A stretch of DNA of 64,000 nt, taken from Hwangdonia lutea (GTDB lineage: Bacteria; Bacteroidota; Bacteroidia; Flavobacteriales; Flavobacteriaceae). Numbering within the stretch: position 1 is the stretch's first letter; the number at the start of each line of letters is the position of its first letter. Below the pieces are notes generated by a model, which had not been told where the DNA came from, searched no databases, and was given only the letters and a program-made list of their open reading frames with translations. Location: positions 3,320,501 to 3,384,500 of the forward strand of contig NZ_CP136521.1 in the NCBI RefSeq assembly GCF_032814565.1, written 5' to 3'. The translations under genes were made by a program, and so were the position numbers. Shown here piece by piece: positions 23,962 through 35,020 of the stretch.

Positions 23962-24321
23962 TTGAGTGCCTCATCAGCTATCCGCTGAATGCGGGTGCAA
24001 ATATAGAACCCTTTTTTAATTCTTTCAAATAAAATATCCACTTTTTTTAAATAAATTTTATCTCGCTGTGTATAAGTTTAATCGCAAATAAATCCCTGAG
24101 GCCAGCCTCGGGGGTTCCGCTAAAATTGTCATTCCCGATAAATTGGGAATCCAAATATCAAATTTCTATTTTTCATCCTAAAGATTAAAATAAAAACGAA
24201 CAATAAACCTCTTGGGCTTTGTCTCGAGGCAGTTCATTTCAAGAAATTTTTATTTTATCCAACTTCATGGTAAAAAGAAAAATTCAAACCTTATTTTTGT
24301 AACCAAAGCATTGCAAAAAAT
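23962..24321. other. Intergenic, with a small REP-type palindrome
   Basis: No gene is seen. TTGTCATTCCCGATAAATTG...GGAATCC at 24126-24152 is a short palindrome of the TGTCATTCC family found again near 32.3 kb and 34.1 kb. A GAGG...CCTC dyad lies near 24101. A TATTTTTG promoter box is at 24292-24299. Confidence 0.6.
24292..24299 (+). promoter_or_regulatory. Putative -7 box of the nitroreductase gene
   Basis: TATTTTTG fits TAnnTTTG and lies 22 bp upstream of the ATG at 24322. Confidence 0.4.
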
Positions 24322-27449: not shown

Positions 27450-27635
27450 AACCCGTTGTGCATTTTGGGAGAATTCTGTCAATTCGAGTGAATTTTACGA
27501 TTGAAATGAGTGAAATTTGTATCGAGAATAAGAATTTTTTGAACCATAAATGGGTTCTCGATACAATTTTTCGTTCCTCAAAATCACTCGAACTGACATA
27601 TTGAAATTATTTTCATTCAAAATGCACAACGGGTT
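27450..27635. repeat. Nested inverted-repeat element
   Basis: The outer arms AACCCGTTGTGCATTTT (27450-27466) and its exact complement (27619-27635) enclose an inner palindrome. The inner arms are TGTCAATTCGAGTGA...TCACTCGAACTGACA with one mismatch, and TTGTATCGAGAA pairs with TTCTCGATACAA. The inner unit belongs to the TGTCA...TGACA palindromes seen elsewhere in this window. It may have inserted into an older hairpin, or the whole may be a MITE-like repeat. No coding potential is seen. Confidence 0.75.
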
Positions 27636-31700: not shown

Positions 31701-32273
31701 CTAAAACCCCGCAAAAACCGTTTCCTTTATCCCATCCCATTCCTCACTCAAAATCCCATAACAACAGGTGCTGCGTTTAAAACCATCAAGCATCAACGTA
31801 TCTTTTCGTAAAATACCTTCCAGGGTGGCGCCTAATTTTTCAACCGCTTTTCTAGATTTTAGGTTGCGCTCGTCTATTCTAAATTCTACTTTATCAAATT
31901 CTAATGCTTCAAAGGCGTATTGTAGCATTAAATATTTCATGTGGGCGTTAAGTCCGCTGCCCTGAAATTCGTGTCCTATCCACGTCCAGCCAATGTGCAA
32001 CACTTTATTTTTCCAATTAATCAATCCAAAACGGGTGCTTCCAGCATAAGTGTTGGTTTGTTTATCAAACACAATAAACGGCATAGTGGTTTTGAGTTTA
32101 TAGCCATCAACAGCAGTTTGCACGTAGGCTTTTAAATCGTCGGGCGTATCAATTTTACTGGGCGAGAATTGTATTAAGTGGGGTTGTTGTGCAATGGGCA
32201 ACAGGTGTTTGTAATTGCTTAAATCTAAAAGCGAAAGTTTTACGCGGTGGTTTTCTAGGGTTGGTGCTTTCAT
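31701..32273 (-). CDS. GNAT-family N-acetyltransferase
   Basis: A 190-aa acetyl-CoA-dependent transferase of the RimJ/RimL-like branch. Visible parts are LENHRVKLSLLDLSNYKHL at the start, YAGSTRFGLINWKNKVLHIGWTW as the central strands, FQGSGLNAHMKYLML as the acetyl-CoA P-loop and FRIDERNLKSRKAVEKLGA. The last carries the Asn/Ser signature of ribosomal-protein or small-molecule N-acetyltransferases. It is monocistronic, with a REP-type palindrome just upstream of its start. Confidence 0.87.
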   Translation of the reverse strand: MKAPTLENHRVKLSLLDLSNYKHLLPIAQQPHLIQFSPSKIDTPDDLKAYVQTAVDGYKLKTTMPFIVFDKQTNTYAGSTRFGLINWKNKVLHIGWTWIGHEFQGSGLNAHMKYLMLQYAFEALEFDKVEFRIDERNLKSRKAVEKLGATLEGILRKDTLMLDGFKRSTCCYGILSEEWDGIKETVFAGF

Positions 32274-32291
32274 GTTATGTACGTTCTTTGT

Positions 32292-32370
32292 TTGTCATTC
32301 CGACGCAGGAGGAATCCCATCCTGTATTAAAAATGGGTTATGTGATTTCTCCTTTCACTCGAAATGACAA
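32292..32370. repeat. Complete TGTCATTCC...TGACA palindrome
   Basis: TTGTCATTCCGACGC...GGAATCCCAT on the left pairs imperfectly with ATGGG...GATTTCTCC...TCGAAATGACAA on the right, a ~79-bp hairpin. It is a solo copy next to the larger element that carries the GIY-YIG gene. Confidence 0.75.
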
Positions 32371-32380
32371 CTATAAATTT

Positions 32381-32775
32381 TTTGTTATTCCGACGCATGA
32401 GGAATCCCATTATCAATAAAAAGATGATTTAAAAACTCAAAACTCTCATTAAAATTCCGAAGCAAATTCAACTTTTTATCTCTTCTCCAGCCTTTAATTT
32501 CTTTTTCTCTTGCAATGGCAAGTTGAATCCAAGAAAATTTTTCATAATAAACCAGATACTTTAAATTGTATTTGGCAGCAAAAGTTTTACGTTTAAGTTC
32601 TATGTTTTCAATATGTTGCTGTAAACGTTGCGTTAAATTATTAGTTACGCCAATGTAGTAAGTTGATCGGTATTTATTAGTAATTATGTAAACATAGTAA
32701 GTGTGATGGCCTTCTGTATATTCAATCATAATCAAAAAAAATATTATGCGATTCCTCCTTTGTCGGAATGACAAT
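32381..32775. mobile_element. Palindrome-bounded GIY-YIG element
   Basis: The left half (32381-32410, TTTGTTATTCCGACGC...GAGGAATCCC) is the inverted complement of the right half (32748-32775, GCGATTCCTCC...GTCGGAATGACAAT). A GIY-YIG nuclease gene fills the space between. The right half abuts the stop codon of the adjacent hydrolase gene. The structure is a REP-type palindrome whose loop contains a nuclease gene, which suggests a mobile repeat-nuclease unit. Confidence 0.6.
32385..32729 (-). CDS. GIY-YIG nuclease-family protein
   Basis: A 114-aa single-domain nuclease from the ATG at 32729 (MIEYTEGHH). The motif YYVYIITNK, then TYYIGVTNNLTQRLQQH, gives the GIY-YIG core with its catalytic Arg; KYLVYYE supplies further conserved positions, and REKEIKGWRRDKK is the usual basic segment. 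The last nine residues (DNGIPHASE) are encoded by the left palindrome half. The upstream in-frame extension would be encoded by the right half and is not needed. Small GIY-YIG proteins of this type are common in Bacteroidota; their cellular role is unknown. Confidence 0.85.
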   Translation of the reverse strand: MIEYTEGHHTYYVYIITNKYRSTYYIGVTNNLTQRLQQHIENIELKRKTFAAKYNLKYLVYYEKFSWIQLAIAREKEIKGWRRDKKLNLLRNFNESFEFLNHLFIDNGIPHASE

Positions 32776-33411
32776 TTACACTAACCCATTAATCAACTCT
32801 ACATTCACTTCATGCTTACCATCAAACAACATAACAAGTAAATTATCCTTAAATAAAAGTTGTGCTTTTTCGGTTTCGGATTGTAAGCGTTCATCGGTTA
32901 AATATTCATCATCGGTTCCGCAAATTAAACTCACTTTGGCTTTTAAAAACGCGAAGTCTTCCGCTTGTAATTCTTTGGGAATACCACCGGAATGCAACAC
33001 CAATTGGGTACATGGCAATTGCCGTTTTGCCACATAGCGCGCCGCAACACTAACGCCTTGCGAATAACCAAACACAATCAAGTTGAGGTGTTCCGGAATG
33101 TTTTCAGCTTTAAAAACAGCATCAAAATTGCGCATCACATTTTCGGTTTCCATTTCGGTGCTTTCCTTGGTTAGCCAACTGGAGCCCACGTGTTTGAATT
33201 CGGATTTTAAATAATATTTACTGGCTGCCTGTGGGGCGATAATATAATTTTCATCAGGATTTAATCCTTTAAAATACCTTAAAAAATACCGACTCAAATA
33301 GCCCATGCCATGGCAAACAAACCATACATTTTTGGTTGATTTTGTAAGTTCATTTAGCGTAGAATACGAGTTGGATATGGTGTATGATATTTCTTTTTCT
33401 TGTAATTTCAT
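32776..33411 (-). CDS. Alpha/beta hydrolase, phospholipase/carboxylesterase-like
   Basis: A 211-aa cytoplasmic serine hydrolase. The nucleophile elbow GYSQG (near 120), LICGTDDEYL (Asp) and DGKHEVN (His) give a complete catalytic triad; VCHGMGY supplies the oxyanion-hole region. It is divergent from the thioesterase-menaquinone cluster with only 51 bp between start codons. A link to that pathway (MenH-like) is possible, but MenH signatures are not apparent. A carboxylesterase is the safer call. Confidence 0.8.
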   Translation of the reverse strand: MKLQEKEISYTISNSYSTLNELTKSTKNVWFVCHGMGYLSRYFLRYFKGLNPDENYIIAPQAASKYYLKSEFKHVGSSWLTKESTEMETENVMRNFDAVFKAENIPEHLNLIVFGYSQGVSVAARYVAKRQLPCTQLVLHSGGIPKELQAEDFAFLKAKVSLICGTDDEYLTDERLQSETEKAQLLFKDNLLVMLFDGKHEVNVELINGLV

Positions 33412-33898: not shown

Positions 33899-35020
33899 TT
33901 GGAAGATTTTTTTAATCGTATTGAAACGCAATACCGCAACCATTTGCCTTTTGTGGTTTACAGAAAACCCAATGAAGATGTTGTTAAAGCGATACTTCAA
34001 CAAACAAACGGTTTACATTTTACCAGAGATTTTACCGAAAAGGGGTTTGTGTTTTCACCGTTTGACGATGCCGAAGATTCGATTTTGATACCCGTTGAAG
34101 ATTCGGAAGTGATTTCTATGTCCCAACAATTTGTCATTCCTGCGGATGCGGGAATCCACTCGAATAGCCATTCAGTTCCAATGGAATCTGAATCAAAAAA
34201 ATTTCACATCAACCTTATAAAAAAAGGCATCAAAGCTATTACCGAAAAGGCCTTTGAAAAAGTGGTTTTGTCGCGACATGAAACGGTAAATCTATCAAAT
34301 TCGAATCCCATTTCAATTTTAAAAACCCTTTTAAAAACTTATAAATCGGCCTTTGTGTATTGTTGGTATCACCCCAAAGTAGGCCTGTGGTTGGGCGCAA
34401 CACCAGAAACCTTAATTAAAATTGAAGGTAAACAATTGTCTATTATGGCATTGGCGGGTACACAAGACTATAAAGGCACTTTGGATGTAGTTTGGGAAGC
34501 CAAAGAAAAAGACGAGCAGCACATTGTAACCCAATTTGTTGCCGAAAGTTTAAGACCTTGGGTGGAAAACTTAAAAATAGGTGAGACCGAAACCGTAAAA
34601 GCAGGTAATTTGTTGCATTTAAAAACGATGATTTCGGCCAGATTGCTATCGGATTCAAAATTAAAGGATATTGTTTCGGTATTACATCCCACGCCAGCCG
34701 TTTGCGGATTCCCGAAACTTGATGCCAAACAATTCATTTTAAAACACGAAAATTATAACCGCGAATTTTACACGGGTTTCCTAGGAGAATTAAATTTTGA
34801 AACCACAAAAACACCACGATCCGGTAAACGCAATATTGAAAACAGAGCTTATGCGATAAAACAAAAAAGCACACAGTTGTACGTTAATTTGCGTTGTATG
34901 CAAATAAAAAACGACAAAGCCATTATTTACATTGGTGGTGGTATTACCGAAAGCTCCATTCCGGAAAGCGAATGGGAAGAAACAGTGTCTAAATCTTTGG
35001 TTATTAAAAGCGTTTTGTAA
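33899..35020 (+). CDS. menF: Isochorismate synthase (chorismate-binding enzyme)
   Basis: A 373-aa chorismate-utilising enzyme that converts chorismate to isochorismate, the first step of menaquinone synthesis. Landmarks are KAITEKAFEKVVLSRHE, then LWLGATPETLIKIEG, IMALAGTQDY, VSVLHPTPAVCGFPK and the Mg-binding EFYTGFLGE. The start is a TTG at 33899; no ATG exists between it and the in-frame stop at 33857. An in-frame REP-type insertion (34131-34157) encodes FVIPADAGIH in a variable loop before the conserved domain. It is followed by a terminator. Confidence 0.88.
   Translation: MEDFFNRIETQYRNHLPFVVYRKPNEDVVKAILQQTNGLHFTRDFTEKGFVFSPFDDAEDSILIPVEDSEVISMSQQFVIPADAGIHSNSHSVPMESESKKFHINLIKKGIKAITEKAFEKVVLSRHETVNLSNSNPISILKTLLKTYKSAFVYCWYHPKVGLWLGATPETLIKIEGKQLSIMALAGTQDYKGTLDVVWEAKEKDEQHIVTQFVAESLRPWVENLKIGETETVKAGNLLHLKTMISARLLSDSKLKDIVSVLHPTPAVCGFPKLDAKQFILKHENYNREFYTGFLGELNFETTKTPRSGKRNIENRAYAIKQKSTQLYVNLRCMQIKNDKAIIYIGGGITESSIPESEWEETVSKSLVIKSVL
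34131..34157 (+). repeat. TGTCATTCC-type palindrome inserted in frame in menF
   Basis: TTGTCATTCCTGCGGATGCG followed by GGAATCC is the same repeat family as 24126-24152 and 32292-32370. ATTCCTGC pairs with GCGGGAAT with one mismatch. It adds residues without breaking the frame. Confidence 0.75.

Follow-up and report, generated by a model that had tools for sequence, protein, structure and literature searches.

The window analysed here is a 64,000-nucleotide stretch of the Hwangdonia lutea genome (contig NZ_CP136521.1). It contains a small gene (32385..32729, minus strand) that encodes a GIY-YIG nuclease of 114 aa from its likely ATG start (PF01541, E 4.5e-16). The enclosing open reading frame (32385-32774, minus strand) stays open to a TTG at 32774, which corresponds to 129 aa. 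The Y, Y, R, H and E residues expected, from I-TevI, to be catalytic are all in place, and their columns are invariant in two alignments (A3/A4). The AlphaFold prediction has a mean pLDDT of 83.5, and the predicted fold is a GIY-YIG domain. The solved structures nearest to it are UPF0213 proteins and the structure-specific Slx1, all of them weak matches with no E below 0.001. The best matches by fold and by sequence are the UPF0213 entries PDB 1zg2 and 1ywl, with a weak Foldseek E of 5e-3 and a weak phmmer E of 0.15, and PDB 1ln0, of the I-TevI kind, is also among the weak fold matches.

The gene lies between inverted REP halves. The right half (TTGTCATTCCGACAAAGGAGGAATCGCAT; 32746..32774, minus strand) is on the 5' side of the gene, bears TTGTCATTCCGACAAAGGAGGAATC, points its TGTC tag outward, and adjoins the stop codon of an alpha/beta-hydrolase-like gene. 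Its inverted partner on the 3' side, the left half (TTGTTATTCCGACGCATGAGGAATCCCAT; 32382..32410, plus strand), has the tag TGTT and encodes the last residues of the protein, GIPHASE, together with the stop codon. A gene-less inverted REP pair (32292..32370), tagged TGTC, is located 11 bp from the left half. The original prediction had described the close flanking halves, the coding role of the left half and the solo palindrome, and each was found. The solo palindrome needs one correction: it is a heterodimer of an ATTCCGA half (32292-32320, plus strand) and an ATTTCGA half (32344-32370, minus strand). In a repeat search, the right half of the unit pairs with the left half of the solo pair over 29 nt at 90% complementarity, and the left half of the unit is a more diverged copy, which matches its solo counterpart at 82% over 45 nt. 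The stem of the unit is imperfect, with 5 bp followed by GA/GA mismatches and a longer loop. Folded alone as single-stranded DNA, the halves of the unit are weak (z -0.8 and -1.2) and the solo pair is stronger (z -2.9).

Together, unit and solo pair form a 502-bp block (32274..32775). Downstream lies a GNAT acetyltransferase gene (31701..32273, minus strand; PF13302, E 9.2e-18), and upstream lies the hydrolase-like gene (32776..33411, minus strand; PF02230, E 2.6e-4, narrowly below the curated threshold). The site was compared with 14 loci of relatives that have a good hydrolase match (L147-L160), with 1.5 kb on each side. At six of them the GNAT gene directly adjoins the hydrolase-like gene; the aligned ends are 0-18 nt apart, and the stop and start codons touch or overlap. 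At the other eight, no GNAT match was found within 1.5 kb on either side. The GIY-YIG gene of the window was found at none of the 14 loci (tblastn, E 1e-4), and no REP of such kind is present at the empty sites. Since the neighbouring genes touch or overlap in the six relatives, the block is an insertion, and both of its parts arrived between these genes, in a single step or in several. No target-site duplication is apparent by eye at its junctions.

Related repeats in the genome

Two single REPs and another inverted pair are present in the window. One single REP (GTCATTCCCGATAAATTGGGAATCC; 24128..24152, plus strand) is a TTCCYGC-like pattern match, and the other (34133..34155, plus strand) is of the TTCCYGC class. 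They had been taken for shorter relatives of the unit's palindrome; both repeats exist, but their class is not that of the unit, and elsewhere it goes with a different type of GIY-YIG protein. They are thus members of the same superfamily as the repeats of the unit, not copies of the unit. The second REP lies within the ORF of a chorismate-binding enzyme, MenF (33899-35020, plus strand), where it is read in frame as VIPADAGIH. It sits in a linker whose length varies among the 11 relatives compared, which makes its insertion into the linker likely. This in-frame repeat is reminiscent of the Rickettsia palindromic elements within genes. The inverted pair, which is gene-less and of the long TCGAG..TCGAGA class, was identified by its class pattern at 27478..27597.

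Class-specific REP patterns, drawn up after the types had been seen, gave 17 matches in 464 kb of the genome, compared with one in all over five Markov simulations. By class pattern, the genome holds 6 ATTCCGA and 15 ATTTCGA copies and, when up to two mismatches are allowed, 45 CTGAGC..GTCGAAG copies; the reversed-pattern control gave 0 for each. The exact ATTCCGA class has only six genome copies, two of which are in the window block (one in the unit and one in the solo pair). Five of the CTGAGC..GTCGAAG sites are inverted pairs about 50 bp apart. Dispersed gene-less pairs, for which a genome-wide search had been proposed, lie at 27478-27597 and at these five sites elsewhere. Eight gene-less heterodimer pairs, with starts about 55 bp apart, were also found in five Sphingobium megaplasmids. 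A search for Y1_Tnp gave no match in the genome and was positive in 6 of 14 controls. RAYT-type mobilisation in the H. lutea genome is therefore unlikely.

Palindromes beside GIY-YIG genes of other genomes

Ten GIY-YIG matches were found in the genome at E 0.01, and six of these are short genes. By eye, each of the six is flanked on both sides by inverted palindromes, which differ from gene to gene, and a GTC tag is visible in four of the six palindrome sets. A strict detector requiring the tag and a 5-bp stem found both sides in only 18 of 57 genes and missed many arms that are visible by eye (controls: 1/26 weaker GIY genes, 0/20 uvrC genes, 6/220 shifted positions, and 6/57 with the tags inward). 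For this reason, arm-to-arm alignment with a match threshold of at least 26 was adopted. Two of the six genome genes (L005 and L006) pass this threshold. The other four (L001-L004) score 20-23, because their two arms have diverged and are palindromic but unlike each other.

The survey of the same order covered the best-scoring matches in 60 relatives and this genome, with at least 87 short ORFs. After duplicates and ORFs too near contig ends were left out, 54 genes were selected at E<1e-20 to a seed profile of the six genes, and thus by protein and not by flanks. Matching inverted arms are present at 38 of these 54 genes (among the best-scoring matches listed). The control counts are 0/20 for uvrC genes (two pass when the threshold is lowered), 10/315 for shifted positions and 19/424 for mismatched arms. 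The set has a further 25 short GIY-YIG genes, and eight of them also pass; among the eight are several repeats at tRNA genes and two shorter ORFs of a tandem array. A tandem array at L076 has the order REP-gene-REP-gene-REP, and two of its three GIY-YIG ORFs are shorter.

Named genomes of several phyla were also scanned, which yielded 578 loci; the best 80 were taken, and 75 of these had enough flank. The arms pass at 57 of the 75 loci from this best 80 of 578, compared with 19 of 420 shifted positions. Mismatched arms were rejected as a null for this set: 232 of 511 mismatched pairs also pass, because most arms belong to one palindrome class. The passing loci among the best 80 of 578 include Pseudomonadota, Bacteroidetes, Planctomycetes, Nitrospira and Omnitrophus, as well as Parcubacteria, Uhrbacteria and Moraniibacteriota records. 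Arms remain below the threshold at 16 of the 54 order genes and 18 of the 75 cross-phylum loci, some of which show nothing, and a few passing arms (for example, L203 and L228) are not visibly REPs. Among 12 plasmid-collection records picked for spread from 33, ten have arms, including those of Neisseria, Azospirillum, Novosphingobium, Sphingobium and Shinella; none were seen at the Photobacterium and Rhizobium K1/93 loci. Hairpin repeats of the CGTCATTCCCGC type lie on both sides of the homologue in Neisseria gonorrhoeae. The original prediction had staked itself on homologues generally carrying such flanks, and in these three surveys most of them do. No homologue of L053 was found in phage records at E 1e-5. 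An identical hairpin core, CTGAACTTGTTTCAG, occurs beside GIY-YIG genes of Sphingobium (L236 and L244) and of flavobacterial-type genomes (L067 and L075), and is thus common to Alphaproteobacteria and Bacteroidota.

Presence and absence of the unit at orthologous sites, the other outcome on which the prediction had been made to depend, was observed in three cases, the empty window site of the six relatives being one. In Sphingobium megaplasmids, at a site between fnrL and a response regulator gene, seven records match the unit at full length (three fetched) and four are shorter (all fetched). The four shorter records are without the gene; two of them have one palindrome tagged at both ends, and two have no such REP. 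The two-tagged form has a single near-match elsewhere in five Sphingobium records (W02:657967). Being nearly unique, it looks like a deletion scar and not a target, and it was probably formed by joining the outer halves of both REPs at the shared ACCCCGGG. Slippage between the shared 8-bp ACCCCGGG can be another source. One occupied Sphingobium copy is frameshifted. In Shinella, three records match at full length (two of them nearly the same) and three are without the whole block. Four REPs are present in the two full-length records that were fetched, and the empty sites have no such REP. In Rhizobium CIAT894, an IS element adjoins the unit site.

Two other kinds of short GIY-YIG gene were noticed. 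A separate group in other genomes (L030, L035, L056, L057, L060, L061, L078 and L082) consists of genes of about 82 aa that, by eye, lie at apparent tRNA 3' ends, where repeats of the tRNA end and terminator surround the ORF, in some cases in tandem. Judged by sequence, these genes resemble homing units that target a tRNA and rebuild its end. At L029/L062 (second gene) and L063, the GIY-YIG gene is located by eye at TGGAGF-like codons of apparent NDP-sugar epimerase/dehydratase genes, and the target sequence appears on both sides of it.

Fit between protein and hairpin

A comparison of the two arms of one gene indicates that the stems are maintained. Stem positions changed on both sides yet still paired amount to 70 directed cells, where about 7 are expected if the sides were independent, each arm pair being counted up to twice. 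Another 22 are changed on both sides and unpaired, and 144 are changed on one side. At L015 and L005, outer stem pairs are swapped and the tag and loop are unchanged. Conservation and co-variation of the hairpin point to recognition of the folded repeat by the protein. Protein and palindrome similarity between genomes are also correlated (Spearman 0.33; 640 pairs, 37 genes), a value reached in none of 2000 permutations.

Two-sided class patterns left 77 of 138 genes untyped and were abandoned; one-sided patterns typed 79 of 138. Among the 79 typed genes, a W-H motif is present in 7 of 8 genes with the CTGAAC palindrome and in 0 of 71 others, and a KAG motif, in which W is changed to G, is present in 4 of 5 genes with the ATTGCGAG palindrome and in 0 of 74 others. 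With a looser pattern applied to 93 genes, W-H agrees with CTGAAC in 8 of 8 versus 1 of 85, and the G motif agrees with ATTGCGAG (looser form TGCGA) in 7 of 8 versus 5 of 85. The variable motif begins about 5 residues behind an invariant Glu, which is presumably catalytic. Both motif-palindrome pairs are shared by flavobacterial-type relatives and Sphingomonadales records. The W-H genes occupy three separate tree positions, and with the motif columns removed the AU test rejected a single clade both for W-H, at p 0.029, and for the G motif, at p 0.002, in groups that were named after a tree had been seen and with few columns. Mosaic recombination may be an alternative to a repeated origin of the motifs. 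The motif tests are not independent of descent; a test on independent pairs gave 3 for, 0 against and 1 tie (p 0.25) and is underpowered.

The rule was also applied to new loci. In 296 genomes of the phylum, 30 loci were found and 27 were analysed, three being lost to the GIY regex. Under a scripted rule, K(A/S)G genes have the ATTGCGAG-type palindrome in 16 of 17 cases and the rest in 4 of 10. Regrouped afterwards, KGG genes have it in 3 of 4 cases and W genes in 0 of 5, and the truncated, motif-less L275 has it as well. One of these five W genes (L270) is the genome's own L001 and so is not new, and the new loci are not independent because all are relatives of one query. There were no W-H genes among the 27, so that only the K(A/S)G rule was checked there. 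The palindrome type thus follows the protein, and the two motifs mark two palindrome classes across phyla.

Known systems and the origin of the unit

The repeats resemble a known class. The paper of Di Nocera et al. (2013, PMC3733652) defines CGTC REPs and reports them from five phyla, including Bacteroidetes, and also from within genes; some are equated with dRS3 of Neisseria and with RPE-4/RPE-6 of Rickettsia. As described there, CGTC REPs apparently have no dedicated transposase, and what spreads them is left open, with various transposases suggested as possible movers. The likeness lies in the CGTC/TGTC/CCTC tag, the AT-first stem, and the head-to-head (HH) dimers and heterodimers of that account; the difference is that the window has a GIY-YIG gene in the place of the transposase. 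The tag, which is CGTC in that text and in many cases TGTC or CCTC, is TGTC at the right half and the solo pair. Dimers, mostly HH and often heterodimers in the same text, are found at 32292-32370, at 27478-27597 and in the five pairs elsewhere. The 34.1 kb REP has the stem that this text gives (8-9 bp with a loop of 4-5), namely 8 bp with one G-T and a loop of 4. The unit, with 5 bp and a longer loop, does not, and its REPs are therefore TGTC-tagged relatives of the CGTC family and not strict members.

The comparison with REP/RAYT systems (REPtrons, REPINs) is mixed. An enzyme gene between inverted REPs and dispersed gene-less REP pairs are common to both, and the REP/RAYT-like arrangement originally proposed is supported. 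In contrast to their GTAG tag and Y1 HUH transposase, the window has a TGTC tag and a hydrolytic GIY-YIG nuclease. GIY-YIG enzymes hydrolyse the DNA strand and form no covalent joint. The likeness to RAYTs is thus one of arrangement and probably recognition, not of chemistry. A literature search by title, abstract start and term counts found no link between GIY-YIG nucleases and REP or CGTC repeats.

The enzyme itself probably belongs to the Ssn family of single-strand nucleases. This family is said to have been described by Chenal et al. (Nature Communications, 2025) as GIY-YIG nucleases that cut single-stranded DNA site-specifically at a repeat. The Neisseria prototype reportedly partners a repeat present in hundreds of copies, with many homologues having their own sequences, and an effect on natural transformation has reportedly been seen in Neisseria. 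As in that description, the window has a small single-domain GIY-YIG protein (PF01541, invariant columns, fold) with intact catalytic residues and a cognate repeat both beside the gene and dispersed in the genome as the ATTCCGA-type and ATTTCGA-type copies. The hairpins at the Neisseria homologue are a further likeness, and the imperfect stem of the window's palindrome is a difference. GIY-YIG homing endonucleases of the I-TevI kind have the same catalytic fold. In contrast to them, the unit is without an intron or target-gene context, its flanks are the repeat itself, and a protein of 114 aa can hardly accommodate a DNA-binding domain of its own.

The block is best read, with a probability of roughly 0.6, as a REP-like mobile unit in which a GIY-YIG nuclease is bounded by the hairpins that it recognises, the gene-less pairs being its non-autonomous kin. 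We infer that the nuclease moves the repeats. The protein would bind the folded hairpin while the DNA is single-stranded, on the lagging strand, in transforming DNA or when extruded, and would nick it at one defined position. The hairpin pair, with or without the gene, could then be copied, moved or deleted through repair by the host or by annealing to another REP. Since the enzyme leaves no covalent joint, joining would be the work of the host. Nicking of REP-bearing single-stranded DNA may also influence DNA uptake.

We take the unit to be a selfish element that moves by way of nicks and their repair by the host; the main rival of this reading is a host-serving role in DNA exchange. Such a nuclease would nick incoming or exposed single-stranded DNA at REPs, which would serve as its marks, to tune uptake or exchange, and movement would be rare and incidental. 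The reported effect on transformation in Neisseria and the CGTCATTCCCGC-type repeats at the gonococcal homologue fit this role. A long vertical stay is also suggested by L001 and L023, from two genera, which directly follow a similar gene end and encode sister proteins (98* support). The patchy presence at orthologous sites and the frameshifted Sphingobium copy speak against it, and a tandem unit array and several types per genome look selfish; a host-serving role is rather unlikely. It is more improbable still that a homing gene cut ready-made REP pairs and was copied into them through break repair while something else spread the palindromes. The short GIY-YIG genes at tRNA 3' ends and in apparent sugar-nucleotide epimerase genes, with the target repeated by eye, fit this reading, as do the two Sphingobium strains whose site holds one palindrome, in contrast to the gene of the seven full-length records. 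That palindrome, tagged at both ends, is scar-like rather than target-like, the empty sites in the relatives of the window and in Shinella have no such REP, and the genome has no Y1_Tnp match. We know of nothing else that spreads these REPs.

If another transposase moved the REPs, the GIY-YIG gene could be a passenger that is often caught between two of them. Di Nocera et al. (PMC3733652) suggested various transposases as possible movers of CGTC REPs. Y1_Tnp, the only transposase family searched, has no match in the genome in a search positive in 6 of 14 controls, the association of gene and palindrome is far above that at shifted positions, and the palindrome type is tied to residues of the protein; a passenger gene is very doubtful. 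Least credible of all is that the small gene is simply surrounded by transcription terminators of the usual kind or by inverted repeats that arose by chance. A terminator function of the hairpins is conceivable, and the single halves in the window fold weakly, but the Markov simulations and shifted positions contradict this as a full account, as does the cross-phylum match of palindrome and motif.

The recurrence of enzyme and matching hairpin in distant bacteria suggests that a large class of bacterial repeats has its missing partner in these enzymes. In the widest form of the mobile-unit reading, which is tentative and on balance not favoured, CGTC/TGTC REPs of many phyla would be non-autonomous members of GIY-YIG-driven units that move by nicking of folded hairpins and host repair without transposase chemistry. 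Hairpin choice would follow a residue code with more than one origin for a given hairpin. The code would lie at and just after a Trp six positions behind the presumed catalytic Glu, with W-H for CTGAAC, W-to-G for ATTGCGAG and mostly W-N/K/R for TTCCYGC. The mobile-unit reading and the residue rule may be what is novel here. The tight match of nuclease family and hairpin makes the question of what spreads CGTC-class REPs testable with one purified protein and one oligonucleotide. If the residue rule is causal, the hairpin cut by such an enzyme could be foreseen and changed. As a separate observation, a GIY-YIG gene on a Planktothrix plasmid (L127) is located between an MmeI-type restriction enzyme and the DISARM gene drmA.
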